Shown piece by piece: positions 27,215-44,053 of a stretch of 64,000 nt of DNA; within the stretch, counting starts at the first letter, position 1; every line of letters begins with the position of its first letter. A model generated the notes under the pieces. That model had not been told where the DNA came from. It made no database searches and saw only the letters and a program-made list of their open reading frames with translations. Origin of the DNA: Eggerthellaceae bacterium (GTDB taxonomy: Bacteria; Actinomycetota; Coriobacteriia; Coriobacteriales; Eggerthellaceae); assembly GCA_017432445.1 (NCBI GenBank), contig JAFRJC010000034.1, positions 1-64,000 of the forward strand, read 5' to 3'. Made by a program: the position numbers and the translations under genes.

Positions 27215-29215
27215 ATGGGGTTTGTGATGGGTTACAACGCGCTTTCGAAGATGCAAGAAAAGAACCGCGCCGATTACGGGATTGAAGGGTCGCCGAAGAT
27301 TCCAGAACTTCCCACTGCACCGAGGAATTTCGGACGCGAAGCGCTGGCATTTCTGCGCGAGTCATGCGAAGACCTCAAGTTCGACACTTCCGATACGCGG
27401 CGAGCGGCGCTCGAGGACCTGGACGGACGCAGTTCGGGGCAGGGAACGGTTCCTTACAACATGGAGCGTGACCTTGACCGCCTCAGCTTCGAGGCGGCTG
27501 TGGGACGTTTCCTCGAGAGCGGGTCGCGCGAGGATGCCTTCGACATCTACTACTGCTATTGCGAGATTTTCGAGCCGTTCGGCGGGGGCTACGAATCGAC
27601 GGGGCTTCTGCTCGAAATGCTCTCAGAGCACGAGACGAACGCCAGCTCGCTTCTGATGAAGCATCGCGACCATTATTCGCACAGCGTCTACGTCTTTCTC
27701 ATCGGATTGGCTATTTACCGCAACCATGCTGCCGTGCGCGCGGCGTACAACCGCAAGTACGGCCTGGAAGAAGGTCCGCAAGCCGCCTGCCATTTCCTCG
27801 AGTACTGGGGCCTCACGTCGTTGTTCCACGATATCGGCTACCCGTTCGAAATCGCGCACCAGCAGATGAAGGCCTACGTCTGCAAGCTGTTCAAGAACAA
27901 CAACGATGACTTTGGGTTTGCGCCCTACGTCTCTTATCGCAACATGGACGAGTTCGCGCTCTCGCGGCTCGGCGACCTGAACGAGCTGTACGCCTATGCA
28001 ATCACCGAGCGCCTTGCCGAGTCTTACCTCGGGCGTGTCGGGCATGAACCTTACTACCTGAATCACAAGCTTCTCGGCACGTTGCAGGACCGCGCCGTGC
28101 ACGAGAATCCCGCCGAGATGAATTACCTGTTCATGGACCACGCCTATTTCAGTGGCCTCATCGTGATGAAGACGTACCTTGACCAGCACCCCGAGATTAC
28201 GGACTTCGAGCAGCTCCCCGAAGTGCTGCTCGATAGCTTCTGTGCCATCATCTTGCATAACAGCCTGTTCAAGTTCACGATACGCATGCTCATGCGCACG
28301 CGCGAACCGCTGCGCATAGACGACGGGCAGCCGTTGTCGTATCTCCTCATGCTCTGCGACGAGCTTCAGTGTTGGGATCGTGCGTCGTACGGCAAGAGCA
28401 GCCGCGGCGGGACATATCCCTTCGATTTCGACTTGGCTTTTGAAGATGGCAACATGGCCTGGACTTATTTCTTCGATAAGACCTACGAATCCGATGTCCT
28501 GTCGGCTAAGGCATACCACGACGTGCTCACGGAGGGCTATAAGAAGAGGTCGGGAGCCGTGCGCGAAGGGCGCAGCAAGTTCGTTGACGACATCGACGAG
28601 ATCATCAGCCTCTCCGATGTGCTCCCAACGTTCGAGCCCGATGTCTCGAAGCCGGATCCGAGCGGCGCCATCCGCGCCGTCATCGAGGAGAAGCAGAAGA
28701 AGACGGGTTTGTACCTTTCCGATAGCAACTACCTGAGCCTCTATGATTTCGCGCTGGCGCTCAACGGCCGGTACTGCGGCGTTACGAATGTCGACGAGAT
28801 GACGCGCATCTTCGAGGAGAACCTGTCGCTGGAATACAAGCTTTCCAACATCGCGCAGGCGAAGGGGTTCGGGCCGCTGCTGGAGAAGATCGGCTGCTTC
28901 TACACCGATCGTCCGGTGGAATACGAACCGGTCGTCTGCTTCGAAGACGATGAGCTTGCAGCGATTGCTGAGGCTGAGCACGATCGGTGGTGCGTCGAGA
29001 AGCTGAGCTTGGGTTGGCGTTATGGTAAAGCGCACGTCGGTGCGGGGCAAGGCGGCGCCGACGACAAAGTCATGCGCGAGCGCACGCGCCTCCACCACGA
29101 CCTGGTTCCCTTTGCAGAGCTTTCGCATGCCGAGACCCTGAAAGACTCGCGGCCCATGGAAAAGATGCTCGAGCTCATACGTGTCTTCGAAGGTCTCACA
29201 ATCTACCGGATGTAG
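27215..29215 (+). CDS. HD-like domain protein with C-terminal RyR domain
   Basis: 666-aa protein (start at 27215 or the ATG at 27227). The middle has an HD-phosphohydrolase-like pattern: KHRDHYSHSVYVFL (His near 153/156) and SLFHDIGYPFEIAHQQ (His205-Asp206), so it may hydrolyse a nucleotide, though the full metal-ligand set could not be verified. The C-terminus (about residues 580-666) matches a RyR repeat: AEAEHDRWCVEKLSLGWRYG and a late GLTIYRM. Prokaryotic RyR domains are associated with nucleotide-centred conflict and signalling systems. It lies 12 bases upstream of the SLOG-like gene, probably in one operon. A GC-rich hairpin (27186-27202) sits just before the start. Confidence 0.7.
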   Translation: MGFVMGYNALSKMQEKNRADYGIEGSPKIPELPTAPRNFGREALAFLRESCEDLKFDTSDTRRAALEDLDGRSSGQGTVPYNMERDLDRLSFEAAVGRFLESGSREDAFDIYYCYCEIFEPFGGGYESTGLLLEMLSEHETNASSLLMKHRDHYSHSVYVFLIGLAIYRNHAAVRAAYNRKYGLEEGPQAACHFLEYWGLTSLFHDIGYPFEIAHQQMKAYVCKLFKNNNDDFGFAPYVSYRNMDEFALSRLGDLNELYAYAITERLAESYLGRVGHEPYYLNHKLLGTLQDRAVHENPAEMNYLFMDHAYFSGLIVMKTYLDQHPEITDFEQLPEVLLDSFCAIILHNSLFKFTIRMLMRTREPLRIDDGQPLSYLLMLCDELQCWDRASYGKSSRGGTYPFDFDLAFEDGNMAWTYFFDKTYESDVLSAKAYHDVLTEGYKKRSGAVREGRSKFVDDIDEIISLSDVLPTFEPDVSKPDPSGAIRAVIEEKQKKTGLYLSDSNYLSLYDFALALNGRYCGVTNVDEMTRIFEENLSLEYKLSNIAQAKGFGPLLEKIGCFYTDRPVEYEPVVCFEDDELAAIAEAEHDRWCVEKLSLGWRYGKAHVGAGQGGADDKVMRERTRLHHDLVPFAELSHAETLKDSRPMEKMLELIRVFEGLTIYRM

Positions 29216-29227
29216 GCAAGGCAAATC

Positions 29228-29887
29228 GTGGGCGTGCCCATCGTCATAGGCGTGACCGGCCATCGGGACCTGCGTGCGCAGGATCTGGGGCAGATACGCG
29301 CGCTTGTGCGTGCCGAGCTTCAGAAGTTGAGCGCCGCTTGCCCGCATTCGGAGCTCGTCATGTTGAACTCCATTGCCTCGGGTGCAGATTCGCTGTGCGC
29401 GCAAGAAGCCTTGGATTTGGGAATAGGGCTCGTGTGCCCCCTTCCTCTCGAACTCGACGATTACCGTAGGGATTTTTCCGGCGAGGAACTCGAGGCCTTC
29501 GAGAGCTTGCTCGAGCGAGCCGACGAGGTGTTCGTGGCGCCGAGCACCGAGCCCGAGAAGCCGGGACGCGATTATCGGTATCGGCAGGCTGGGATTTACG
29601 TGGCGACGCACTGCCATGTGCTGCTCGCGCTATGGGATGGCACGCCGTGGAAACCGGACGGCTGCGGTGCGGCAGAAGCGGTGGGTTTCATGCTCGATGG
29701 CGGCTCTTTCGGCGCGCCTCCCTCCGATGCGGCGCGTGACGGTGCCGTCATCCAAATCAGCGTGCCGCGGGCTTCGAAAAACCAGGAGATTCCTATAGCC
29801 GTGCACCTGTTGGAAGAGCATCCGGGATGCCTCAAGGACCTGCTGGAACAGACGGATTCCCTAAACGCGGATTTCGAGCTACCTTAA
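29228..29887 (+). CDS. SLOG-like Rossmann nucleotide-sensor protein
   Basis: 219 aa from a GTG start. The N-terminus VIGVTGHRDL, the segment SIASGADSLCAQEALDLG, ADEVFVAPSTEP and ATHCHVLLALWDG follow the pattern of SLOG/LOG-type Rossmann folds, which bind or process nucleotide-derived ligands in prokaryotic conflict systems (family knowledge from comparative genomics). The gene begins 12 bases after the HD-RyR gene, so the two products probably act together. It has no effector domain of its own, suggesting a sensor or ligand-handling role. No terminator was found after it; 190 non-coding bases precede the next gene. Confidence 0.65.
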   Translation: MGVPIVIGVTGHRDLRAQDLGQIRALVRAELQKLSAACPHSELVMLNSIASGADSLCAQEALDLGIGLVCPLPLELDDYRRDFSGEELEAFESLLERADEVFVAPSTEPEKPGRDYRYRQAGIYVATHCHVLLALWDGTPWKPDGCGAAEAVGFMLDGGSFGAPPSDAARDGAVIQISVPRASKNQEIPIAVHLLEEHPGCLKDLLEQTDSLNADFELP

Positions 29888-30078: not shown

Positions 30079-30558
30079 ATGGCAACAGCAGAGTCGTTGC
30101 GTCAAGAGTTCATGGACTACATGGATTCCAAGGACATCAAGTATACGGTTTTCGATGAGGAGGACAACATCGTTTACCTCGCCTTCGGCGGTGATAAGGA
30201 GACGTTCGTTCTGGTCGACTTCGACGAGGACGGCAACAACGCCGATAGCGTGCACTTCTTGTCGAGCAATTTTGCAAAAGCGGAGAAGTCCAAGATTCCC
30301 CTGGCGCTCGTCAGGCTCAACGAGATCAACCGCCAGTATCGCTGGGTCAAGTTCTACATGTCTGACGATGGAGAGATCTCGGCCGATTGCGACGCCGTTA
30401 TCTCACCGGGAACCGTGGGGGCCGAGTGCGTGCAGATCTCGATGCGCATGTCCAACATCATCGAAGATGCGCTCGACAAGTTGGCCGGTGCGGCTGAGAT
30501 CAACGAGGAAGCCAAGAGGATGTTCGACGTCATCGCTTTGATGAAGCGCTTGGGTTAA
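30079..30558 (+). CDS. YbjN-like protein
   Basis: 159-aa protein resembling the YbjN / type III secretion chaperone-like fold: DYMDSKDIKYTVFDEEDNIVY is a typical N-terminal beta pattern, followed by FVLVDFDEDGNN and a helical C-terminus (MRMSNIIEDALDKLAG). Such proteins usually act as small binding partners or regulators. AAAGGAGACTTGC precedes the ATG. It ends just before a strong terminator at 30586. Whether it belongs functionally to the neighbouring SLOG/RyR pair is unknown. Confidence 0.65.
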   Translation: MATAESLRQEFMDYMDSKDIKYTVFDEEDNIVYLAFGGDKETFVLVDFDEDGNNADSVHFLSSNFAKAEKSKIPLALVRLNEINRQYRWVKFYMSDDGEISADCDAVISPGTVGAECVQISMRMSNIIEDALDKLAGAAEINEEAKRMFDVIALMKRLG

Positions 30559-30652: not shown

Positions 30653-30680
30653 GCACGCTTGGGGCTGTCCCCAAGCGTGC
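30653..30680 (-). terminator. Hairpin at the end of the minus-strand AAA operon
   Basis: Perfect 12-bp stem GCACGCTTGGGG/CCCCAAGCGTGC (30653-30664 and 30669-30680) with a 4-base loop, 24 bases beyond the stop of the 57-aa gene on the minus strand. The GGGGCTGTCCCC centre matches the recurrent short hairpin family. Confidence 0.65.
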
Positions 30681-30703: not shown

Positions 30704-30877
30704 TCAGCTGTTGACGGTGCGCTCGCAGGCGGCAAGGCGCGCGAGGAAATCCTCGGTCGGAGGCGCGGCGGGCACGTCGGGCGTTTCGGCGGACGCGTCC
30801 GCCGAGGCCGGGGAATCCTGTCCTTGGTACATGAGGTCGGCAAGGGCCTTCAGCAAATCATCACTCGGCTCGCTCAT
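30704..30877 (-). CDS. 57-aa acidic protein with a DDLL-helix motif
   Basis: Small gene overlapping the last 17 bases of the AAA-peptidase gene in another frame. AAGGAG lies six bases before its ATG, an excellent ribosome binding site. The product starts MSEPSDDLLKALADLMYQGQ and ends TEDFLARLAACERTVNS. The segment DDLLKALADLMYQGQDSP closely resembles the repeat of the acidic protein at 34402-36132 (for example EDLLASIAALMGQDSPDPEP). Translational coupling to the AAA-peptidase and a shared short helix suggest a docking or adaptor peptide for this operon. Function is inferred only. Confidence 0.6.
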   Translation of the reverse strand: MSEPSDDLLKALADLMYQGQDSPASADASAETPDVPAAPPTEDFLARLAACERTVNS

Positions 30878-33800
30878 CGGCGTCTCCTTCCCGAAGCGTC
30901 TTCCACAGCTCCATGATTCTCTCGCCTGACATGGTCGACTCGTCGAGCAACGCCTCGACGAGTTTGTCGTAGATTGGCTTCTGCTCCATGATCACTTCCT
31001 TCGCGCGTTCGAAGGAGCGGGCCATCACGCCATCGATCTGCTCGAGCACGGCAGGGGGCAAGTCATGGAGGGCCACCGTCTGCTTGGCCCTGCGCCCGTC
31101 GTCGAGGTACTGGACGAAGCCTGCAGGCGACATGCCGTAGGTGGCGACGTAGCGGCTCGCGATGCGCGTGGCCTGCTGCAGGTCAGAGGAATTGCCGCAC
31201 GAGAAAGCCCCGAAGTGTATTTGCTCTGCGGCCATGCCCCCCATGAGTTCGATGACCTGATTCTCGAGATCGTCGGCAGTGGGAAGAGCGGCAACCTGCG
31301 CCTTGTGCTGCACGTAGCCCAAAGCGCCCGTCCCTTCCTGTTCGATGGTCACGACCACGATGTCGGTGCCGCCCGTCAAGGCGAGCCGGCAGATTGCATG
31401 CCCCATCTCGTGGAGCGCAACGCGCCTGCGCGCCTCTTCACCCGATACGTCGGAAGGCTCGTAGACGGGCATCGAGACGAGCTTGCAGATATCCGCAATC
31501 GAGGGCACGTCTTCAGGTTCCAGAACCGAGAATTCAAGCGCGTCGTCGCGGTTGGCATGCTTGGCAATGACTTCTTGCAGCAGCTTGTCGACAAAGCGGC
31601 CGTTGCCGTAATTCTCGGTTCCGTGGAAGTAGCGCAGCACGTCGCGGGCTGCTTCCGCAGTCCCTTCGGCAAGGCTCAACCCGGCTTTTCTCACCTTCAG
31701 CTCGAAGATGTCGAGCAGCTCGTCGACCTTGTAGTCCTCGAAGTGGAAGTTGTATCCCACGCGGCTTGCCAGACCTGGGTTGCGGTCCAAGAACTCGCGC
31801 ATCTCCTGCTTGTAGCCGGCGAACATGACGACAAGCTCTCCCTTGTGGTCTTCCATGGCCTTCACGATGTTGGATATGATCTCGTTGCCATCGCGCGTGT
31901 AGAGCAACGCATAAGCCTCGTCGATGAACAAGACGCCACCCATGGCTGCCTTGAGGTGCTTCTGGACGGCGGTCTCGCTCGAGCGGAACTGGAAGGCCGA
32001 AAGGTCGTTGGCTTCCACCTCGATGAACTTGTTCGTGGGAACGGCGCCGACGTTGTACAGGATGCGCGCGATGATGCGTGCGACCGTGGTCTTGCCGGTG
32101 CCTGGGTTCCCGGTGAACACCATGTGCAGGTTCGAGCTGGGGAGCTTGAGCCCGGCCTTGAGGGCGCGCTCCCTGAACTCGACGACGCGCTCGAACTCGC
32201 ATACCTTCGCCTTCAGGTCCTCCATGCCGATAAGGTCGGCAAGCAGGTCGTCGGCACTGCGGGGCGACCAGTCGGTGATGTCGAAGAGCTCCTGTTTGGT
32301 GGGGATGTCCTCGGATGCCAGCGTGAAATCTTCTTCCGCATCCTCGTCGAGCGCGCTGTGGGCAGCGTGCTTGACGATAGCCTTCTGGAGCACTTCCATG
32401 ACGAAGCGCCCATTGCCGAAGTTCTTGAAGCGCCGGTAGTAGTCGAACAACCCCTTGAGTTTCGGCATGATCTCGGTTTCGTCATAGGTGAAGCCGGCCT
32501 TTTTGGCGTTAATAGAGAAGATCTGCAACAGCTCGGGCGTCGAATAGTCTTCGAAGCGGAATGTGTAGCCGATGCGGGAAGCCATGCCCGAGTTGGCCTC
32601 CATGAACTCGTTCATCTCCTTCTCGTAACCTGCGAAGATCACGATAAGGTCGTCTTTGTGGTCTTCCATGGCCTTGACGAGCTCGGCGATGCTCTCACGC
32701 CCGAAATCGCCGGCGGCTCCCTCGCCGCTGGCCGTGAGCGCATATGCTTCGTCGATGAACAGGATGCCGCCGAGGGCGCTGCGAATCACTTCCGACGTCT
32801 TCTTGTCGGTCTGGCCGACGTAGCCGGCCACGAGGTCCTTGCTCGTCACCTCGATGCACTTGTTCTGTCGGATGATTCCGATTTTATAGAGCATGGTCGA
32901 GATGATGCGGGCGATCATCGTCTTGCCGGTACCCGGACTTCCCAGAAACAGCATGTGGTTGTTGGCCGAGGGCATTTCGCGATGGGCTGCGATTGCCTCC
33001 TGGCGGAAGACCGAGTACTTCTCGAGTTGTTTGATCGTATTCTTGACCTGGGTCATACCGACGACGCCGTCGAGCATCTCGTCGAGCGAGGAGCTCTGGT
33101 AGCGGCTTTTTGGCAGGCGCAGTTCGCCGAGCGCGTTGGCATGCTTGGCGAGGAAGTCGGCGAGTTCGGCGCCTTGGAAGGGCATGCAGTCACGGTTGAA
33201 CCCGACGAACTGGACGAACTTCCGCTCGAATTCCGGATCGGCCAACGCGGCCTTGCGCAAAGGCGCATTGAGGTTCTCCAGATAGATGCGGTACAGCTCG
33301 CGAAGCGGCATGCTATCGAGGTTCATCCGATGCTGGTCGAAGGTTAAAAGCAGCTTGCTGTCGAGGTCGATGAAGCCCCGCAAATCGGCCTCGTTCCCGA
33401 CGAGGATGACGTAGCGGTCGTCGACGATGTGGCTTAAGCGCTCCGCCACGTAGTTCTTCTGGGCGTCGCCGAACATCGACGAGCTGTCCACGAAATCCTT
33501 CACGCGGTCGAGCACGTAGAGCGTGCGTGGCTCTAGGTTCTCGTCACCAGTGGTCCTGAAACGGTTGTGGCTCGGGTCAGCCTTGTCGACGAGCTCCATC
33601 AGGTGCATCTTCTTGACAGACCCCTCGTCGATCTTGTCCATTTTCACGAGCGTTGTGGTCAAGTCGTCGAGGAACATCGTCCGGTAGGAGTCGTCTTCCA
33701 CCACGAGCATGCCCGCGAAGTCGTTTTCGTGAAGGTCGAGCAGGAGGTTGAGCGCAATTTCCGACGAGCCAAGATGAGATTCCCATTTTTCCCTGAACGT

Positions 33801-34250
33801 GCGGGTGTCGGCTTCGATGGAGGCGATGTGTGCCTTGCAGTCGTCGTAGACGGGGATAGGCGCGCTTTCGCTGCCGTCGATCTGCGCTGTCCACGATGCT
33901 TGGGTCAGCTTCGCAAAGCATGCCGCCATGGCTGCCGGGCAGGCGTCGTATCCGCAAGTCCTGTGGGAGCAACGCAAGTCGTCATGGCCTTCCCGCATGA
34001 TGACGCCGCTTGCGCGCGGCATGAGCTCGGCGTTGAGCAGGGCGCAGCGGGAATTTCGCAGATCTCGGCTTATGACGCGCTCCTTGACGTCGCGCAGCCG
34101 GTATGCGAGGAAACAGTCAGATAGCGCTGCGTCGTCGGTTTCGATTAGCTCCACAGCTTGGTTATCGTGAAGTTCGCAGGCGACCCTCACGGCCCGTGCA
34201 TCTTTCTTGGAAGCTCTTATGAGCAGTTCTTCGAGCTTTGATTGTGCCAT
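30861..34250 (-). CDS. Tandem CbxX-type AAA+ ATPase fused to an FtsH-like M41 peptidase
   Basis: 1129 aa. The N-terminal ~390 residues are not recognised (Cys/His-containing RCSHRTCGYDACP near 95). Then come two CbbX/SpoVK-like AAA+ modules: Walker A GSPGTGKTMIARII (near 435) with Walker B GGILFIDEAYAL, and GNPGTGKTTVARII (near 713) with GGVLFIDEAYALL. The C-terminus is an M41 metallopeptidase: HEMGH at 947-951 and the third-ligand motif NSSDLQQATRIASRYVATYGMS, as in FtsH. Unlike FtsH it has no membrane segments and the AAA type is different, so it is probably a soluble unfoldase-protease. It lies downstream of the acidic repeat protein and is coupled to the 57-aa gene. Confidence 0.88.
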   Translation of the reverse strand: MAQSKLEELLIRASKKDARAVRVACELHDNQAVELIETDDAALSDCFLAYRLRDVKERVISRDLRNSRCALLNAELMPRASGVIMREGHDDLRCSHRTCGYDACPAAMAACFAKLTQASWTAQIDGSESAPIPVYDDCKAHIASIEADTRTFREKWESHLGSSEIALNLLLDLHENDFAGMLVVEDDSYRTMFLDDLTTTLVKMDKIDEGSVKKMHLMELVDKADPSHNRFRTTGDENLEPRTLYVLDRVKDFVDSSSMFGDAQKNYVAERLSHIVDDRYVILVGNEADLRGFIDLDSKLLLTFDQHRMNLDSMPLRELYRIYLENLNAPLRKAALADPEFERKFVQFVGFNRDCMPFQGAELADFLAKHANALGELRLPKSRYQSSSLDEMLDGVVGMTQVKNTIKQLEKYSVFRQEAIAAHREMPSANNHMLFLGSPGTGKTMIARIISTMLYKIGIIRQNKCIEVTSKDLVAGYVGQTDKKTSEVIRSALGGILFIDEAYALTASGEGAAGDFGRESIAELVKAMEDHKDDLIVIFAGYEKEMNEFMEANSGMASRIGYTFRFEDYSTPELLQIFSINAKKAGFTYDETEIMPKLKGLFDYYRRFKNFGNGRFVMEVLQKAIVKHAAHSALDEDAEEDFTLASEDIPTKQELFDITDWSPRSADDLLADLIGMEDLKAKVCEFERVVEFRERALKAGLKLPSSNLHMVFTGNPGTGKTTVARIIARILYNVGAVPTNKFIEVEANDLSAFQFRSSETAVQKHLKAAMGGVLFIDEAYALLYTRDGNEIISNIVKAMEDHKGELVVMFAGYKQEMREFLDRNPGLASRVGYNFHFEDYKVDELLDIFELKVRKAGLSLAEGTAEAARDVLRYFHGTENYGNGRFVDKLLQEVIAKHANRDDALEFSVLEPEDVPSIADICKLVSMPVYEPSDVSGEEARRRVALHEMGHAICRLALTGGTDIVVVTIEQEGTGALGYVQHKAQVAALPTADDLENQVIELMGGMAAEQIHFGAFSCGNSSDLQQATRIASRYVATYGMSPAGFVQYLDDGRRAKQTVALHDLPPAVLEQIDGVMARSFERAKEVIMEQKPIYDKLVEALLDESTMSGERIMELWKTLREGDADERAE

Positions 34251-34401: not shown

Positions 34402-36132
34402 CTATCGGAACGGTTCGAACGTGATGCGCTCGGCGACGCCGGGTAGCATCTTCATGCCCTGGATGATGCGGTCGAACTTCTGCTTGTCGGCTGGTTGGCA
34501 ATTCGACATGTAGTCTGCGAGTCGGAAGAGGGCGCCATCTGCGATGAACGAAAGTTGCTCGGCGAAATCGTCTTGGGAAAGTCCCGATGAGCGGGCTTTT
34601 CCGAGAACGTGCATGATCGTGATGGTACCGTAGTCGTCCATGATCTGGGCTTGCTCCTCGTAGGACAGGCCATAGGCGTCTTCGTTTGCGTTGCGCAAGA
34701 TGACGTCCATCAAGGCCATGGCGGGTGCGTAGTCGCCCTTGTCTGCTTCGGCTGAAACGCGGCTGTAGTACTTGAGGGACTCGCTGCGCTGGAAATCGGC
34801 GTAGCGCGGATGCTCGGCGCGGTATTCGCGTAGGTCATCCGCCATGCTGCCGAACGCCTCGCCATACAGCTCGACGCCCTTGTCGGCATACTCGAGCGCC
34901 TCGTCGTAGGAGGTTGCGGTCATGGCCGCTATCTGCAGTGATTCCATGTAGGCGTTCGGCTGCCCCTCAACCATGTGCTCTTGCGCGTATGCGCGGAACG
35001 GCTCGCCGCATTCCAGGCTCTCGAGCGCGTAGTTGGCGGCATCGTAGCCGCTGCCAATTTGATGCAGCACGAAGGAAGCCGCATGATGGTAGGCCATGCC
35101 CTTCAACGCAGCGCTTTCAGCGCAGAAGGAACAAGCCTGCTGGTACGCGGCATAGGCATCAGCCAGGGCGCCCCGGTCGAAGTACCGTTCGCTTTCGGCG
35201 CACAGAGAATTGAACTTCTCCTCGAGGCCGGGGTCTATTTCGGGCGTTGCGGGCACTTCGTCCTCGTTCTGGTCGCTTGCGTACATGCTCCCGCCCATGA
35301 GGGCGGCGATGCTGGAAAGCAGATCGTCGCCGTCGCCACCGTTATCGGCGGGCGCGGGTTCGTCTGTCGGCTCCGGGTCAGAGGAGTCTTGCCCCATGAG
35401 CGCGGCGATGGCGCTGAACGGGTTGTCATCAGATGCGGGTTCCGGCTCTGGTTCCGGCTCGGGCTCGGGCTCTGCTGGGCCTGGTCCAATGAGGCTGGAA
35501 ATGCTTGAGAGCAAGTCGTCGGTGTTGTCGTCTTCGGCGGGCGTGGGCTCATCAGCCGGCTCCGGGTCAGGGGAGTCTTGTCCCATGAGTGCGGCGATGC
35601 TGGCGAGCAGGTCCTCGTCTGGCCCGCTTTCGGATGTCGCTTTGGGCTCTGGCTCTGGTTCCGGCTCGGTATCTTGTCCCTGCGTCTCTTCGGCATACTG
35701 TCTGATTCTATCCTTCAAATCTGGATTGAGCGCGCCCATGAGGCTCACGACGCCGTCGATGGCGTCGTTGACGTCCTGCTCGTAGGTGGACTCGGACTCG
35801 TCATCTTTCTCTTCCGGCTCGGGTTTCTCGCCCATGAGCAAGGAAAGGGCTTTGGCCAAGTCGGCCTCCCCATCAGAGGAGGAATCGGCGCTTGTTCCTC
35901 TGTCGGCTGTCGTTGTTTTCGCCGGAGAATCCAAACCGGATTCCTTGCCGTCCCATATAGCCGCAATCGCGTCGAGGAGTTCCTGGTCGGGTTGAGATCC
36001 TCCGCCGGAAGAACCTCGCGTCAACTTGTCCGCGCCAAGCGGGCTTCGCCCCGATCCGCTGCCTCTCGGCGCCGGCTTCTCGGGCTCGGGCTCAGGTTTC
36101 GAAGATCTTCTGAATCGGTCGAAGAATCCCAT
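34402..36132 (-). CDS. Acidic protein with repeated DDLLxSIAALMG helices and helical C-terminal domain
   Basis: 576 aa, no known family recognised. The N-terminus MGFFDRFRR is short and amphipathic and may touch the membrane. Residues ~50-300 are disordered and rich in Glu/Pro/Asp, with seven copies of a short hydrophobic helix: QELLDAIAAIWDG, ADLAKALSLLMGE, NDAIDGVVSLMGA, EDLLASIAALMGQDS, DDLLSSISSLIGP, NPFSAIAALMGQDS and DDLLSSIAALMGGS. Residues ~300-576 look helical and TPR-like (ADAYAAYQQACSFCAES; SYDEALEYADKGVELYG). First gene of the minus-strand operon with the AAA-M41 protease, so it may be a scaffold, adaptor or substrate. The DNA repeats are coding, not a CRISPR array. Confidence 0.75.
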   Translation of the reverse strand: MGFFDRFRRSSKPEPEPEKPAPRGSGSGRSPLGADKLTRGSSGGGSQPDQELLDAIAAIWDGKESGLDSPAKTTTADRGTSADSSSDGEADLAKALSLLMGEKPEPEEKDDESESTYEQDVNDAIDGVVSLMGALNPDLKDRIRQYAEETQGQDTEPEPEPEPKATSESGPDEDLLASIAALMGQDSPDPEPADEPTPAEDDNTDDLLSSISSLIGPGPAEPEPEPEPEPEPASDDNPFSAIAALMGQDSSDPEPTDEPAPADNGGDGDDLLSSIAALMGGSMYASDQNEDEVPATPEIDPGLEEKFNSLCAESERYFDRGALADAYAAYQQACSFCAESAALKGMAYHHAASFVLHQIGSGYDAANYALESLECGEPFRAYAQEHMVEGQPNAYMESLQIAAMTATSYDEALEYADKGVELYGEAFGSMADDLREYRAEHPRYADFQRSESLKYYSRVSAEADKGDYAPAMALMDVILRNANEDAYGLSYEEQAQIMDDYGTITIMHVLGKARSSGLSQDDFAEQLSFIADGALFRLADYMSNCQPADKQKFDRIIQGMKMLPGVAERITFEPFR

Positions 36133-36245
36133 AATGCTCCTCCTTCATGCGTCGCAGCACGGTTTTCGTGCAACGTTCGTACGGTCGAAGTTCACATCGT
36201 CTAGTCTATACCATCAGGGGGAGAGCCGCGCTTTTGCCGCGTGAT

Positions 36246-36273
36246 TTGCCTGGTATATTGTTATTGATAGTAT
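36246..36273 (+). promoter_or_regulatory. Candidate promoter of the kinase gene
   Basis: TTGCCT (36246-36251) and TAGTAT (36268-36273) are spaced by 16 bases in an AT-richer patch of the 200-base region between the divergent acidic-protein and kinase genes. This would give a leader of about 55 bases before the GTG at 36333. Confidence 0.35.
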
Positions 36274-36332
36274 TTAAGGTTGAGGATCGGCTTGGAACTG
36301 TTCTCTCTGCGTCTTTTCAAGAGGAGGATGTC

Positions 36333-39300
36333 GTGGACGACTTGACGGGCAGCATTGATTTCTCGGTTCTGAAAGAAGACGTTTTCGAGGGCATGACCAT
36401 GGTGGGCGCCGCGTTCGCGGGGCTGGACGGCGGCATGCAGGAAGCCATTACCGATGAGCGCATCGAGTTTGGCGACAAAGTCCTGGAAACCTACGAGGTC
36501 GTTTCGGATGCCATCTCGGGCGGCATGGGCAGCGTTTGGCGCGTTCACCATGGGAACTGGGGCATTGACCTGGCCATGAAGCGTCCCCATCCGCGTTTCT
36601 TCGCCGAGGCCAGCGCGCATCGCAAGGCGGCGTTTCTCGATGAGTGCGAGCATTGGATCGAGATGGGCCTCCATCCCAACATCGTATCGTGCTACTACGT
36701 GCGCGCAGTGGGTGGTGTGCCCACCGTCTTCTCGGAATGGATGGATCGGGGCAGCCTCAAGGACGTGATTGCAAACGGCGCCCTCTACGATGGAGAAGAA
36801 GGCGACGTGCAGGAGCGCATCCTCGACATCGCCATCCAAGCTGCCCGCGGGCTTGCGTTTTCCCAGGAGAGGGACTTGCTCCACCAGGATGTGAAGCCGG
36901 GTAACCTTCTGGTTACGGGTGATTGGGAGGTTAAGGTTGCCGATTTCGGCTTGGCGAAGGCAGTGAGCAAGCTGGGGGATGAGGACGCCGAAGGGGGCGC
37001 AGACGCGGACCCGTGGGCGGACGCCTTTTCCAGCGCGCTGTCCAGCCTTGGCATGTACGCCGAGGCGCGTGCGGCGTTCCCAACGGGCTATACCCTAGCG
37101 TATTGTCCTCAGGAGCAGGCAGATGGCGCGCCTGCGCAGGCTTGGATGGACGTGTACGCCTGGGCGCTCGTAGTGCTGGAGATGTATGCTGGCGAGCGCC
37201 TGTGGGACGTCGGCTCCGAAGCGGCCGAGTGCTTCGACGACATCGCCGCGAAGCTGAACTGGAAGGCCCCCGAACAGGTTATCTCGTTACTGCAAGACTG
37301 CCTGGTGGAGCGCGGTGCGATAACGTTCGACGAAGTGACGAGGCGCTGTGAGGAAGCGTACCGACAGATGACGGGAAAGCGTTATCCGCGCCCCGATGCC
37401 CGTGGTGTCTTGAGCTCGGCCTTGAGCCTGAGCAACTACGCTTTGAGCTTCCTCGATTTAGGCAAGGAGGAGCGGGCCTTGGAGCTGTGGGATGAAGCTG
37501 TCAAGGTTGACAGCGCATGTGTGCCCGCTCTTTACAACCGCACGCTCTTCGGGTATCGCACGGGTCTTTTGGACGACGTTGCCGCCGTCGCGGCTCTGAG
37601 GACGCTTGCGTATTCCGGGGACAACGACCCCGAAGCCTTCTGGGCTCTGGCCAGGATCCAGCTCGAGTGCCGCGATGCCGACCTGCCGAAAACCCTTGAC
37701 AAGATCGAGGAGCTCTTCCCCGATGCGGACGCAGGCGAACTTGATTCTATGCGGGAGGCGGCTGAGCGCAACTTCCCGAAGCAGGTATACCATTTCAACA
37801 ATCCAAATTCCGGGCCGGTGGACGTGTCGCCAGATGGCACCCACCTGCTCATCCACGACAGCGACTGCGGCAGAGAGACCGAGAGCGTCATCTTTTGCGA
37901 TATCGAGGAGCGCGAGGAGATTTCGCGGATGATTCGAGAGCCTGATGTAGAGCCGCATGCTGAGGTCAGGGCAATGCTCTCGAAGGATAACCAGTTTGCG
38001 TTCGGCATATATGCCCAAGACCCGTTCGTGTACAAATGGCGCACCTCCGATGGCGAGCAAATCGTCGCCATGGTCATGCGGAAGATTCCCGGCGAGCAGA
38101 TCTGCGCCTATGACGTGGACGCTGCTGGCGAGTGGGCCATTTTGGGTTCGACAAGCGGGCGCGTGGGATTCTTGCGCACGGAAAAGCAGGAGACAGCGTC
38201 CTTTACTACCGTTCAAGGGCATTTCGGAGTGTGCATAACGGACGACGGGCGGAAAGGGCTCGTCTCCTGTCGGGAAGAGGATCGGATTGAGATTTGCAAC
38301 CGCGAGGACGGAAGCCTGGTCAAGATTTCCGTGCCCAGCCCCGTCTTCGCGCATTTCGCCCTTGATGACACCTGTGTGTTATCGATTTCCGGGGACGCAT
38401 CGCCGATGATTCGCCTGCATGACGTGGTGAGCGGCGAGTGCCGCTACGAGGTGCCTTTCCCGCGTTTGGATGAATTCATGGGGCGTCAAGGGCAGTTCTC
38501 GATGAGCATGGACGGACGCCGGGTGCTGCTCAGGGGGAACAAAGGCTACCTGCTCTTCGACGTCGCAGCCCATCGGTGGCTCATCACGCTGACCGAAAAC
38601 CAGATTGGCGAGCAGACGAACCTGACGTTCAAGGCGTTTTTACCGGGTGCAGGCGATCGCGTGTACCTGACGTCGTTCCTCTCGAGCCTTCGGGGTATCG
38701 AGCTGCCTTCGTTCACCGAGGACAGCCCGTGGAACCTGAGCGTCATCCGCACGGCGAAGGAGAGCTTCGAGGAAGAGGAGGCGTTCGCGGGCTTCGTCGT
38801 CTGGGCGGAGGACGCGCTGGATTCGGGCGACGTGCCGACTGCGCTTGAATGCGCCGCGAAGGCGGCAACCGTCGGGGAGGGGCGGTTCCGTTCCGACGAG
38901 GCCTACACGTCGCTGGTCAGGAGCCTGATGTCCCGATGTGCGATTGCGGCGGTGGGAACTCCGCTGCTTCTCGACCGCACGCCGGTGTTCACGGCGCCTA
39001 TCGCGGTTTTGTCACCCAGTCCCGACGGCGCGCTGATCGCGGCCATTTCGCAGGATGGCGAGCTTGCCGTCGTCGATGCATCGAGCGGTTCGGCGGTCTA
39101 TCGGGATGTCGCAAGGCGGCATGCGCACCTGAAGAAGCCCCTCTGGTTGGGGACAACGCTGTACTCGCTGGTCGTAGCGGGCCTCGGCGATATGCCCGAC
39201 GGCTACGTGAACAGGCCGTTCCGAATTAGCGATAGCTCGGGTCAAACTGGCCGCATGGGCATCTCGTATCGCGGCGTCGACTTGGGGGGTTCAGCATGCG

Positions 39301-40013
39301 GGCAAATTTTCGCATTCGATTTGGGCGACTTGGCAGGTGGAGAGGAAGCCCTTGCCGAAGACCCCGCCAAGCCCGCGCTCGGCGCTCAGGATGTGACGGA
39401 TTACCAGGTGATGCGAGGCGGCGCGGAGTTCCTCTGCCGTAAGCTCGACGGCTCGGTGAGCCGTATTGCTGTGGAAGGTGCCGAAAAGGTTTTGATGGGA
39501 CCCGACGAGGAATATCAGATCACCGGGTCGGCGCTTTCGCGCAACGAACGCGTCGCCGTTTTGAGCGTTGGCGATATCATGAACTTCCAGAAGGCCGAGA
39601 CCTGTTCCTCCAAGGCGGTGTTCTTCGACGCGACCAGCGGGAAGATCCTGTTCAAGACAGTTGATGCGAGCATCACTTCGGCTTGCGCCTTCACCGATGA
39701 CGGGCGTTACGCCATCGTTGGAAATGACGTCTTCGACTTCCACGGCGGTGCGCAAGGCAGCATTCCGATTGACGGCGACGTCCATGTCGCGTTCTTGGAA
39801 AACCGCTACGCTGTCGGATTGGAGGCTAACGGCGCGCTTTCAGTGTGCGAACTGTCATCGAGGCAGCAGGTCCTTTCCGCAGAAGTGGGCGACGGCCCTA
39901 CGGCGATAGCGTGCAGTCCCGACGGGGCCATGCTGTATGTGGGCAATTCTCAAGGACAGCTTGCCACTTGGCTTTGGGACCACGAGCTCGAGGTCGCTCA
40001 GGTATTCGATTAG
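36333..40013 (+). CDS. Ser/Thr protein kinase with TPR-like and beta-propeller (WD40-like) regions
   Basis: The start is set at the GTG at 36333 (1226 aa) because AGGAGG lies just upstream; the frame is open to 36147. The kinase domain (about residues 45-340) has GGMGSVWRV (glycine loop), LAMKRP (ATP lysine), LLHQDVKPGNLLV (catalytic loop, HQD in place of HRD) and VADFGLAKA (DFG). A TPR-like stretch follows (LDLGKEERALELWDEAVKV). The remaining ~750 residues have repeated propeller-type blades (VSPDGTHLLIHD; SPSPDGALIAAISQDGELAVVD; CSPDGAMLYVGNSQGQLATW). No transmembrane segment is evident. It is divergent from the acidic-protein/AAA operon and could phosphorylate its members. Confidence 0.88.
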   Translation: MDDLTGSIDFSVLKEDVFEGMTMVGAAFAGLDGGMQEAITDERIEFGDKVLETYEVVSDAISGGMGSVWRVHHGNWGIDLAMKRPHPRFFAEASAHRKAAFLDECEHWIEMGLHPNIVSCYYVRAVGGVPTVFSEWMDRGSLKDVIANGALYDGEEGDVQERILDIAIQAARGLAFSQERDLLHQDVKPGNLLVTGDWEVKVADFGLAKAVSKLGDEDAEGGADADPWADAFSSALSSLGMYAEARAAFPTGYTLAYCPQEQADGAPAQAWMDVYAWALVVLEMYAGERLWDVGSEAAECFDDIAAKLNWKAPEQVISLLQDCLVERGAITFDEVTRRCEEAYRQMTGKRYPRPDARGVLSSALSLSNYALSFLDLGKEERALELWDEAVKVDSACVPALYNRTLFGYRTGLLDDVAAVAALRTLAYSGDNDPEAFWALARIQLECRDADLPKTLDKIEELFPDADAGELDSMREAAERNFPKQVYHFNNPNSGPVDVSPDGTHLLIHDSDCGRETESVIFCDIEEREEISRMIREPDVEPHAEVRAMLSKDNQFAFGIYAQDPFVYKWRTSDGEQIVAMVMRKIPGEQICAYDVDAAGEWAILGSTSGRVGFLRTEKQETASFTTVQGHFGVCITDDGRKGLVSCREEDRIEICNREDGSLVKISVPSPVFAHFALDDTCVLSISGDASPMIRLHDVVSGECRYEVPFPRLDEFMGRQGQFSMSMDGRRVLLRGNKGYLLFDVAAHRWLITLTENQIGEQTNLTFKAFLPGAGDRVYLTSFLSSLRGIELPSFTEDSPWNLSVIRTAKESFEEEEAFAGFVVWAEDALDSGDVPTALECAAKAATVGEGRFRSDEAYTSLVRSLMSRCAIAAVGTPLLLDRTPVFTAPIAVLSPSPDGALIAAISQDGELAVVDASSGSAVYRDVARRHAHLKKPLWLGTTLYSLVVAGLGDMPDGYVNRPFRISDSSGQTGRMGISYRGVDLGGSACGQIFAFDLGDLAGGEEALAEDPAKPALGAQDVTDYQVMRGGAEFLCRKLDGSVSRIAVEGAEKVLMGPDEEYQITGSALSRNERVAVLSVGDIMNFQKAETCSSKAVFFDATSGKILFKTVDASITSACAFTDDGRYAIVGNDVFDFHGGAQGSIPIDGDVHVAFLENRYAVGLEANGALSVCELSSRQQVLSAEVGDGPTAIACSPDGAMLYVGNSQGQLATWLWDHELEVAQVFD

Positions 40014-40024
40014 CGTAGTTTTTT

Positions 40025-40092
40025 CGCGCAAATTGCTCATAAAAGCATTCCTTCAACTGGGGAAATGCCGTTTTCAGCTGATAATTTGCGCG
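40025..40092. terminator. Hairpin between convergent kinase and TIR-like genes
   Basis: CGCGCAAATT (40025-40034) and AATTTGCGCG (40083-40092) are perfect inverted repeats enclosing a smaller GCATTCC/GGAAATGC pairing. A T6 run precedes the left arm. It separates the kinase (+) from the TIR-like gene (-). Confidence 0.5.
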
Positions 40093-40118
40093 GAAATGAG
40101 GCGGAGCACCACCGATCT

Positions 40119-41408
40119 CTATTCCAGGAGTGCATCGTAGGCGCTTTTCACCATGTCAAGCAAGGCTTGCTGGCGCTCGAAATCCTCTCGCCAGGAGACC
40201 ATGAGCTTCTCGACGGTCGTCATGATGCGCCTTTTCTCGATAGGGTTGCCTTCGAAGCGAGCGCGCTCCAGAAGCGAGAGGTAGTACTCTTGTGCGAGTT
40301 TGCTGCACAGAACGGCGTCGTCAGGAAACGAGCTCTTGTAGCCGAAATAGAAACGCTCGCGTTCCTTCACGGATAGCCCCAGGTATTCGACGGCCTTGGC
40401 CTCGTCGCCGAGTTCACGATGGGCTTTTGCCTGATTGCGATACTGGTAGCTGCGCATCAAACTCGCGAACAAGTCGTTTTCCGGATGATCTGCCACGTCT
40501 TCCTCAATGGCTGCAAGCGTCTTCTCGCCCCAGGAAAGCGATTCCTTCCAGTAGTAGTCGCGCTCAGATTGATCGAGTCCCTCGGGGGCGATGACGTTGC
40601 ACAGGCTTATGGCGTCGAAGCGCAGTATCTTTGCCCAATTGGCCAAACTTGGATCGTCGAACTCCTTTTCGAACTCCTTCGACAAAAACGTGGTGATCTC
40701 GAAATAGTCTTCAATCTGGAGGCGGTTTTTCAAATCGTCGGTCTTGACGAAGATGGACGCGATGACGCAGGCCTCCTCGATGGCTGCCCCAAGCATTCCG
40801 GCGATGGTTCCGGTGTAGGAAAGCCCTTGGAACATGAGCGGCATTTCGTTGTGATAATAGGCGGACTTCAGGCTGAAGAGCACCATTTGAGCCATCTCGA
40901 AATCAGAGAACTTTTTTCGGATGGCGTGCTGCTTGGCGAGAGTCTTGATTTCCTTCCACTGTGACATGATCGCCGTCTTGTCCAGCGAGCGCGATTCCAC
41001 TTCGAAGCGCTCGACGATTTTCGCAGCAGTTTCGCTTTCGGAGAGGCCGTCACTTTGAATTGGGATGACCCATGAACCCATGAGGTCGCTCGGCAGCTCT
41101 CGCTCGCCAGTGTCGAGCAGGAAGGCGTACACATTCTTCGAGGCCAAGCGGGCTATCATGTAGCCCCATTCGAACATGAGGTTCTCGCTGAACTTTGCCG
41201 GCTCGCCAGTGGACGTATCGTTTTTCTTCTGCGCGAGGATGATTGCGTGGGCGCAGGTGTCCATCTGAGAGAGAACTTGCGTGCCGATGAACATGTCGTG
41301 CGGCGTGCCGCCTCCGACGACCGCACGAAACCCCTTTTCCTCGAGCAGGCTCGCCACGCCCTTGGCAACCCCGAGATTCCCGCTCCATGCGATAAAGACG
41401 CTCTCCAC
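40119..41408 (-). CDS. TIR-like nucleotide-binding domain protein
   Basis: 429 aa from the GTG at 41408 (GGGGCGAGCGACT upstream); an ATG at 41450 would add 14 residues. The N-terminal ~140 residues fit the predicted TIR-like nucleotide-binding family: VFIAWSGNLGVAKGVASLL, VLSQMDTCAHAIILAQKK and ENLMFEWGYMIARL, where the Glu of FEWGY would be the catalytic residue for NAD cleavage. The remaining ~290 residues are helical and unrecognised (with a TPR-like AKAHRELGDEAKAVEYLG), possibly a sensor. It ends convergently with the kinase gene and may be an effector of the same system. Confidence 0.72.
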   Translation of the reverse strand: MESVFIAWSGNLGVAKGVASLLEEKGFRAVVGGGTPHDMFIGTQVLSQMDTCAHAIILAQKKNDTSTGEPAKFSENLMFEWGYMIARLASKNVYAFLLDTGERELPSDLMGSWVIPIQSDGLSESETAAKIVERFEVESRSLDKTAIMSQWKEIKTLAKQHAIRKKFSDFEMAQMVLFSLKSAYYHNEMPLMFQGLSYTGTIAGMLGAAIEEACVIASIFVKTDDLKNRLQIEDYFEITTFLSKEFEKEFDDPSLANWAKILRFDAISLCNVIAPEGLDQSERDYYWKESLSWGEKTLAAIEEDVADHPENDLFASLMRSYQYRNQAKAHRELGDEAKAVEYLGLSVKERERFYFGYKSSFPDDAVLCSKLAQEYYLSLLERARFEGNPIEKRRIMTTVEKLMVSWREDFERQQALLDMVKSAYDALLE

Positions 41409-41466
41409 AGTCGCTCGCCCCTTTCTGGTAGACGGCTGCGATTCTATCATGACTCAATGTCGTGCT

Positions 41467-41491
41467 GTTAAGGGGCTGGCCGACCCTTAAC
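41467..41491 (-). terminator. Hairpin downstream of the LRR pseudogene
   Basis: GTTAAGGG/CCCTTAAC (41467-41474 and 41484-41491) forms an 8-bp stem in the 127-99 bases beyond the minus-strand gene ending at 41579. It also lies upstream of the TIR-like gene start, so it may be regulatory instead. Confidence 0.35.
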
Positions 41492-41578
41492 TGCTTAAGC
41501 GAACGCCAATGCCCTTGCCCCAGAGTTGAGATCTTCTCAAAGGCAATCGATTGACTGCGAGCAAGGCGATTCCGCGCG

Positions 41579-43740
41579 TCAGTACTTGACCCTTACCTTC
41601 TTGCCGCAGTTTTTCTTCGTGAAGATCTTCTTGTATTTGGCGGCGAGCTTCTTGTTCTTCGCCTTCACGATGCTCACCTTCGAACCCTTGAGCGAATTCT
41701 TCACCGATTTAGCCGTGAGTCTAGAGCTCTTCACTACGAGCGTCCTCAGCTGAGGGCACTTGGCGAACGCCTTCGCGCCAATGAACTTCACCTTCTTGCC
41801 GAGCGTGATTTGCTTTACGGTCTTCCGGTCCATCTTTGATATGTCCGAAGCAACGACCTTTTTCTTGTTGATGGTCAGCTTGGCCTTTCCCTTGGCAACG
41901 GAAAGTTTGGCGCTCTTGAACTTATAGGGGTTGTACCCGTTTTGAGCCATGACGAACCAGGCTGTCGGCGCGACGGCAGCGTCTTTTCCGTATACCCAGG
42001 GCGAGCCGTCCGATAGGTAGATCCCCGTCGAGAGGCTTGCGCCCGTTGCAGCGGGGAACAGGCCGCTTGTAAGCTGCACGGACTCAAGGGCGGCCAAAGC
42101 CTTGCTCGCCGCCGTTTTCTCTCCGCGGAGCTTGTGCAAGAGCATCGTGAACGCAGTGCCCTCGCACCAGAATGCCTTCTCGTTGCACACGTGGAAGCGA
42201 TAACCGCCTGCGCTCGTGCGCATCTTGGCGAGCTGGCCGAGGCAGCTTTCGTAGGGCTTGAATGCGTCGCCGAGCGCGAGCGCTGCCCACACCTGTGCAT
42301 CGAGCACGATGTTGCTCGTATTCGTGCTCCCGTCGGCGTTGGTGCCGCTGTAGAACACGCCCTTCTTCCCATCATACATCGACTTGACGAAAGCGAGGGA
42401 GCTATCGGCTGCCTTCTTGTACTTGTCGACCCCTGTCATCCTATACAACTGCGAAAATGCGGCGTAGGCGTCGATGTTGTGCTCGGTCGATTTGTAGGTG
42501 AACTTGATCTCGTTACCGTTTTCGGGCCATCCGTCGTAGCCCGCCGTGAAGCCATCCGACGAGTCGCTGCATTCCTTGATCACCCAATCCATGATCGAGC
42601 GAGCCGCCTCGAGATAGCGGTTTGAACGATGGCTCGACTTGTCTATCTCTGCGTAATGCAAGAGGGCGAGTGCCGCATACGATGTGTTGCCGACGTTGCT
42701 GCCGACTTGGTAGCGTCCTCGTACCATTGCTGTGCCCCGACATCCCACCATCCGGGAAGCCTCGCGCCTGCTTGGCTGCCGGGGGTGGGGGAGATGTCGC
42801 CTGCCGCGTACGCGTTGCGGATCCGCCCTGCGGCGTACCGATCGTGTTCGATTGCGTACACGAACGCGTCGAGGATCTCGGCCGCCTTGCCGTTGCGCCC
42901 TGCCGACATGAACGCCATCGCCGTGAGAGCGTTATCGTAGGTGAACGCCGCGTTGCGCGTCTGCAACGTGGAAGTGTCGTACGAGCGCAGCATCATCGGC
43001 GCTTCCTGGAGCGCCTCGATGTTTCCGACGAACATGATGTCGTCGAGGTAGAAGGTTGTCTTTGCGCGTCGGTTCTTCGCATAGTTGATTGCGTAGCCGA
43101 ATCCGCGGTGAATGTTGCCGAGGTTTGCGCCCTTGAGCGAGATTGTGTACTGCTTCCATTTCTTCGTGAGCTTGACACTGTATTTGGTAATCGTTTTCGC
43201 CTTGTCGCCCGAACCGCCAGCTACGAAGAAGTCGATGACCTCCCCGCCGGAATTACCCCGCGCCCAGAAACGCAACTCGGTCGCGCCCGTGAGGTCGAGG
43301 CCCTTGCCTCCACCGTTGTAGAATTCCCAGCCGCCCCAATCGGTCGCGCTCGTATCATGCGCAAACTTGATGCAGCTCGTGCCCGAATGCGGTTTCGTCT
43401 TGCAGTTCTCGTCGGGGGTTTTCACGCAGTTACGGTATTTCCCCCACATCATTGATTTCTGGGTGAAGTGATTCAACGAGTCGCTGAAGTCCTTGTAGAC
43501 GTACAGCTGGCTGCGCATGGCGTCCAAGCGTTTCTCAAGCGCATTGAGCGCCGTAGACCTGGTGGTTGCACTCGTGTCCACCAGGGTTTCGTCGTCTTCG
43601 CTCGAAGCCATTTGGGTGTTTCCTGCCTCCAGGGCCGCGTAGGCAGCCGAGGGGACGCACACGAAAAGCGCGATCGCAATCGAAAAGACGAGCGAGAATG
43701 CGATCGGGAGGATGTAGTTGTCTCTACGATTCGTCATCAT
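41579..43740 (-). pseudogene. Secreted glycan-active-like protein with LRR region, frameshifted
   Basis: Two overlapping frames (43740-42643 and 42751-41579) read as one protein: the first ends its homologous part at WWDVGAQQWYEDA and the second resumes at YQVGSNVGNTSYAALALLHYAEI, so one base is missing near 42711. The joined ~700-aa protein has a signal peptide (AFSLVFSIAIALFVCVPSAAYA), a beta-sandwich-like region (ATELRFWARGNSGGEVIDFF), a barrel of helices like (alpha/alpha)6 glycosidases (AFTYDNALTAMAFM; NIDAYAAFSQLYRMTG; FWCEGTAFTMLLHKL) and a lysine-rich BspA-like leucine-rich end (VKFIGAKAFAKCPQLRTLVV). It may be a true frameshift, programmed or a sequencing error. Confidence 0.75.
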
Positions 43741-43847
43741 GTTCTGGCTCCCTTCTTCCTCGCGTGTACCTGGTTACACTGTAGCAAATTGCAGGCCCGT
43801 CCTGATAGAAGCATAGGCTCCAAATCAGCTTATGCCCACTACTGCGC

Positions 43848-43965
43848 GGCCAGCCGGGACCCTGCCTGGAGAGGTTCGGGCTTGGCTTCGGCTAACCTTT
43901 GTACGATTTTGAAGCTTGTGCCTGCAGAATCGCCCGAACCCCTCCCGGCAGGGCCCCGGTTGGCC
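43848..43965. repeat. Long-stem hairpin element with conserved core (copy 2)
   Basis: Arms 43848-43880 and 43933-43965 pair over 33 positions with four non-Watson-Crick positions. The loop shares GCTTGGCTTCGGCTAACCT and TGTGCCTGCAGAATCG with copy 1 at 13256-13380, while the arms have unrelated sequence. It fills the 313-base gap between the divergent LRR pseudogene and the TIR-TPR gene and lies about 90 bases before the latter. Confidence 0.75.
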
Positions 43966-44053
43966 AACCCATGAATAGTTCCTACTGCACCAATGGGGTG
44001 CAATCGTGGTTTACTATGGAAGTCGAAGGCGTGTCAACAGATGGGGGCAAGAG

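Follow-up and report, generated by a model that had tools for sequence, protein, structure and literature searches.

In the 64,000-nt stretch of an Eggerthellaceae genome that we analysed (hereafter the window), three genes follow one another on the minus strand, encoding an acidic protein, a protease with AAA and M41 domains (AAA-M41) and, overlapping the protease stop, a small protein (Table 1). The small ORF begins with ATG, lies in the +1 frame relative to the protease gene, which it overlaps by 17 nt, and is preceded by an AAGGAG Shine-Dalgarno sequence with a 6-nt spacer, an arrangement that an earlier sequence-only reading had described accurately. Its translation, MSEPSDDLLKALADLMYQGQDSPASADASAETPDVPAAPPTEDFLARLAACERTVNS, consists of an N-terminal helix motif, an acidic and Pro-rich linker, and a C-terminal helix. 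The protein matches no Pfam family, and no folded substrate-binding domain was found within its 57 residues, which include a low-complexity, variable linker; it is probably mostly disordered. The perfect 12-bp hairpin just 3′ of the ORF, which has no U-tract, is a possible 3′ end of the operon.

Table 1. Features of the window, and YbjN genes of six other loci with motif-like C-terminal tails.
Feature	Position	Strand	Length	Basis
Small gene	30704..30877	-	57 aa	ORF; conservation at orthologous position in 8 other genomes
Shine-Dalgarno AAGGAG of small ORF	30884..30889	-		sequence
N-terminal helix motif, DDLLKALADLMY	30827..30862	-		family alignment, matrix scores, dN/dS
C-terminal helix, EDFLARLAACERTVN	30710..30754	-		conserved as FLxxLRACExxVN; dN/dS
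12-bp hairpin	30653..30680	-		RNA fold z = -4.5
AAA-M41 protease	30861..34250	-	1129 aa	Pfam AAA, AAA_lid_6, Peptidase_M41; solved relatives
Acidic protein	34402..36132	-	576 aa	sequence, motif matrix, Pfam, model
Six motif copies in acidic protein	35938-35991, 35818-35871, 35569-35622, 35473-35526, 35380-35433, 35281-35334	-		HMM and matrix matches
Span of the six copies	35281..35991	-		HMM and matrix matches
YbjN/TY-chaperone-like gene	30079..30558	+	159 aa	PF10722, 36.1 bits (gathering cut-off 22)
YbjN with motif-like C-tail, L066	11541-12053			
YbjN with motif-like C-tail, L070	11543-12049			
YbjN with motif-like C-tail, L108	9021-9566			
YbjN with motif-like C-tail, L109	9068-9583			
YbjN with motif-like C-tail, L112	4903-5526			
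YbjN with motif-like C-tail, L110	5025-5546			

The protease opens with a Cys module (residues ~1-130), followed by two AAA domains of the CbxX type and then the zinc-protease domain of family M41. The M41 domain scores 107.7 bits against PF01434 (cut-off 29.9) and contains HEMGH as well as SSDLQQAT with its conserved Asp; both Walker motifs are likewise intact. Among proteins of solved structure, its best relatives are EccA1, CbbX and FtsH. Like FtsH, it has an M41 domain with HExxH that is sequence-related to solved FtsH proteases; unlike FtsH, it has two AAA domains of the CbxX type, with AAA_lid_6 and with EccA1 and CbbX as their nearest solved relatives, and no N-terminal membrane segment is evident by eye or in the secondary structure of the model. 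Both AAA domains and AAA_lid_6 are shared with the CbxX/CfxQ proteins (CbbX, EccA1), from which the protease differs in that a protease domain is fused to its AAA domains, as is either the Cys module or, in relatives described below, a motif tail. Because structure prediction of the N-terminal 399 residues reached a pLDDT of just 65 and, with a limit of E = 0.001, CbbX was the sole fold match (E = 5e-4, TM 0.25-0.33), a degenerate AAA-like domain in this region is only suggested.

Genome searches at the level of family, order and phylum, at the thresholds used, returned the CbxX-CbxX-M41 arrangement only from this order. A plasmid search for the protease yielded AAA-only partial matches, 0 of which covered 80% of it, and we found no description of the arrangement in the literature searched. 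Judged by its domains, this is an unusual protease: it combines two CbxX-type AAA domains with an FtsH-type M41 domain, and has neither an FtsH AAA domain nor a membrane anchor that is evident.

The acidic protein carries six clear copies of the helix motif and one degenerate copy, as scored by matrix, embedded in acidic linkers between a basic, aromatic N terminus and an all-helical C-terminal half. The C-terminal half has a weak TPR match and was modelled as all-helical with a pLDDT of 58. The N-terminal stretch, MGFFDRFRRSSK, could sit on a membrane. Elsewhere in the family we found no orthologue of the acidic protein, so its role would be an addition in this lineage.

Many signalling- and conflict-type domains surround the operon (27215-29887 and 36147-46375), among them RyR-like and weakly SLOG/YAcAr-like domains, a protein kinase with a beta-propeller, a CAP12/Pycsar-type TIR domain, and TIR combined with TPR.

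Conservation of the small frame at orthologous loci

AAA-M41 orthologues were gathered by whole-genome search (family, order, phylum) together with a scan of genome contigs. The protease is carried by 14 genomes of the order, from three families, and in nine of these, the window included and again across three families, the protease stop marks the start of a small frame. Its product is 57 aa long in the window and in Olsenella An270, 48 aa in Olsenella An188, 49 aa in G634, 52 aa in Coriobacteriales RGIG2431, 130 aa in Adlercreutzia faecimuris, 137 aa in Enterorhabdus P55 and 160 aa in G060; in G061 the frame starts on one contig and ends on another. Throughout this range of 48-160 codons, in which linker length is very variable, all nine share an N-terminal helix, a linker and a C-terminal helix, the two ends following the consensus [D]LLxALAxLLG and FLxxLRACExxVN.

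GGAG-like ribosome sites precede all of the orthologous small ORFs examined, and the junction with the protease ranges from an overlap of 17 nt to -1 (a 1-nt gap). Relative to the protease, the small frame lies in +1 in six of the eight loci measured and in +2 in the other two. Since the relative frame varies between loci, the small ORF is a separate, coupled gene; this variation between species, together with its own start and Shine-Dalgarno sequence, rules out a programmed frameshift that would extend the protease.

Over the N-terminal 25 codons, dN/dS between paired orthologues was 0.05-0.35; the C-terminal part gave 0.18-0.58 and the linker 0.46-1.03. These are rough ratios from short sequences, yet their pattern is consistent. 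Both helices are thus under purifying selection, with a freer linker between them. The sequence-only reading had named loss of the frame from orthologous loci as one outcome that would speak against the gene. That eight other genomes keep the frame at the orthologous position is the chief reason for which we judge it to be real.

The helix motif in the acidic protein and in related proteases

Within the acidic protein, EDLLASIAALMGQDSPDP is the counterpart of the small protein's N-terminal helix, and the match between the two, first noted by eye in the sequence, was borne out. When the small protein is aligned locally with the acidic protein the score is 65, compared with 36.9 ± 5.0 for composition-preserving shuffles (0/300 reach it). 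With a matrix built from the acidic repeats alone, the small protein scores 19.5 and the next-best protein in the window 11.1 (19,311 residues of predicted proteins). Over the whole 3.17-Mb genome, an HMM of the acidic repeats only returns the small ORF as its top match outside the acidic protein, with E = 0.37. The resemblance is therefore clear locally and not significant by itself genome-wide, and it should not carry the case alone.

A motif HMM that was built with the acidic repeats and the small proteins among its members matched nothing else in this genome at E below 0.8, a result that is therefore partly circular, and it found no second motif-bearing protein in other AAA-M41 genomes. 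A recent duplication of the motif from the acidic gene at the nucleotide level received no support (nucleotide alignment score 11, versus 10.1 for codon shuffles). The earlier proposal that the two proteins have a binding site in common is plausible: because the N-terminal helix of the small protein resembles the acidic repeats, a shared binding partner is reasonable.

A matching helix also occurs in some of the orthologous proteases. Every protease accompanied by a small gene has the Cys module, some 130 residues long, at its N terminus (that of G060 being judged from its N-terminal contig), and conversely every AAA-M41 orthologue found with the module has a small frame at its stop. Four proteases, those of G646, G635, G594 and G567, have neither the module nor the small gene, and open with a helix and linker: MAEVDPNLVEQIRAILAGGG in G646, MANLDQDLIAQIRTVLAKE in G635, MADIDPKLLAGIKSVMEGKG in G594 and MSLEDEIAALLAGS in G567. 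The G594 segment was read by eye only, in frame upstream of the listed ORF, in a gene that is frameshift-interrupted in the draft assembly. The first three follow the pattern MA[DEN][ILV]D[PQ]xLxxxIxxxL plus linker and resemble the N termini of the small proteins of RGIG2431 (MANIDPDMAARIAALLGGQ) and G634 ((V)PDIDPDLAAAIASFLEHG). By mean score against these two small proteins, the G646 and G635 N termini exceed all 581 background N termini and the weaker G567 N terminus falls at 0.2%, i.e. above 99.8% of the background, in a comparison that followed post hoc recognition of this cis form from alignments already seen. With matrices trained on the motif, the score of G635 is low. The fourteenth protease, that of G579, has a different N terminus with no motif.

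The presence of the Cys module and the small ORF follows one phylogenetic division, so the nine and four genomes do not amount to many independent cases. Where one lineage encodes a segment as its own protein and another carries it in fused form, this is classically taken as evidence of shared function; because a matching helix is fused to the protease in sister lineages, the small protein looks like a detached protease tail. Scoring rejected the idea that the C-terminal helix copies the FxxKW helix with which the protease core begins.

A YbjN-type neighbour as candidate receptor

The gene beyond the hairpin belongs to the YbjN family. In the window it is convergent with the operon and outside it; in orthologous loci it is usually co-directional and directly downstream. 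It adjoins the protease in 13 of the 14 AAA-M41 loci of the order (in G061 judged across a contig break); the exception is G579, whose sole YbjN gene is on another contig. YbjN is rare in the Eggerthellaceae (16/138 genomes), and occurs in all five AAA-M41 genomes of this family compared with 11 of the 133 others (Fisher p = 1.1e-5). YbjN proteins have a type III secretion chaperone fold with predicted peptide binding (PMC9503650, PMC5398634), and a YbjN-like protein of Deinococcus binds DdrB directly (PMC3575483). The neighbour shares PF10722 with these YbjN/TY-Chap chaperones (PMC9503650, PMC3575483, PMC5398634); what sets it apart is its association with a CbxX-M41 protease and with a protein carrying the helix motif, and it is a predicted peptide binder. 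From its adjacency and the predicted peptide binding of its family, we infer that YbjN is the leading candidate receptor of the helix motif.

Three further observations concern this gene. In six loci, YbjN ends in a linker and a motif-like helix, SxxELLxMLxxL; as extra copies of the motif these tails are suggestive and weak, and they are absent in the window. Two YbjN genes of G646 (L108 157-9566) enclose the protease as well as two large genes lacking a Pfam match (E ≤ 0.001). Finally, in all three genomes of genus g45, YbjN is found 2-7 kb from a single-CbxX AAA gene (L010, G127:C103, G129:C236), an arrangement that may point to a wider link between CbxX and YbjN.

Proposed role of the small protein

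Because it is conserved at the same spot and its first helix is built into the protease in some relatives, the small protein probably works as part of the protease machine. The specific form of this that we favour, and to which we give roughly an even chance, is a co-translated accessory subunit that represents, in detached form, the N-terminal docking tail of the CbxX-CbxX-M41 protease. Translational coupling would cause the protease and the small protein to be made in step and in fixed proportion. The C-terminal helix, we would guess, attaches the small protein to the protease complex, replacing the covalent link of the sister lineages, and the N-terminal helix would be a docking motif held out on the flexible acidic/Pro linker in front of the protease. 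The receptor of this helix would most likely be the neighbouring YbjN-type peptide-binding chaperone, or else a client. With six to seven motif copies ahead of its helical half, the acidic protein could bind the same receptor multivalently as a scaffold, client or sink, and in this genome could cluster it, recruit it or compete for it. The partner of each helix, the direction of regulation and the activity of the protease are what we infer in this subunit model. Counting against it are the genome-wide E-value of the acidic-only profile, the post hoc recognition of the cis form with the low matrix score of G635, the single phylogenetic division behind the module and the small ORF, and the convergent orientation of YbjN in the window. 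Extended further, and then only tentatively, the locus may encode a recruitment system in which the helix motif is offered in cis, in trans (on a 50-160-aa subunit) or multivalently (on the acidic scaffold), and a YbjN/TY protein reads it and loads or unloads a soluble protease.

The sequence-only reading had instead raised the possibility of a competitive regulator, in which the small and acidic proteins would vie for one site on the protease and thereby tune access to it. A motif common to two proteins of one operon, multivalent in one and monovalent in the other, is consistent with such competition. However, the small protein is kept in eight other genomes in which we found neither an acidic protein nor another motif protein, so competition cannot be its primary role, and the matching helix inside four orthologous proteases favours a stoichiometric accessory tail or adaptor over a competitor. 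We therefore regard competition as unlikely, and as less likely than a subunit or adaptor role. The sequence-only reading, which is thus supported in part, had overlooked the conserved C-terminal helix, the YbjN-type neighbour and the presence of six to seven motif copies in the acidic protein.

We also considered whether the helices of the small protein imitate those of the protease, and so control ring assembly or keep the protease inactive. The C-terminal helix resembles the first helix of AAA2 (residue 677) and the N-terminal motif the M41 helix before GGMAAE (992). These two helices are the top-scoring ones in the AAA-M41 alignment, with a wide gap to the next (116 versus 52; 117 versus 72), and column shuffles match the scores in 1/500 each, although the resemblance was found post hoc and ordinary YbjN helices score comparably in a few of 58 windows. 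Amphipathic-helix similarity may therefore suffice to explain it, and we keep mimicry as a lead of low probability.

A strict adaptor, with one helix on the protease and the other binding clients and delivering them for degradation, would suit two conserved ends around a freer linker, as well as the display of the helix by the acidic protein, a possible client. The lack of a separate substrate-binding domain argues against this role, as does the failure to find a second motif protein in other AAA-M41 genomes, and we think it improbable. Finally, a chance, non-functional overlapping frame whose motif is a generic amphipathic helix would fit the shortness of the ORF and the genome-wide E-value of the acidic-only HMM, but is very hard to reconcile with a start, Shine-Dalgarno sequence, two ends and position conserved in nine genomes and with dN/dS well below 1 at those ends.

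SspB and the N-terminal extension of ClpS exemplify AAA+ protease adaptors with tether motifs, in which a short docking helix or motif is carried on a flexible linker. The small protein is similar in pairing a short helix and flexible linker with an AAA+ protease. It differs in having no folded substrate-binding domain, in being coupled to the protease gene, in that sister lineages have its motif within the protease, and in the machine itself, CbxX AAA with M41 rather than ClpXP or ClpAP. Small linkers working with AAA+ proteases are already known, and the small protein described here is a new variant.

In the Coriobacteriia, these results identify an unnamed small-protein family as a conserved and probable part of a so far uncharacterised protease. 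The switch of its helix between cis and trans provides a direct, testable hypothesis as to which part of the machine the small protein belongs to. Furthermore, this locus may offer an assignable partner for YbjN-type chaperones, few of whose partners are known.
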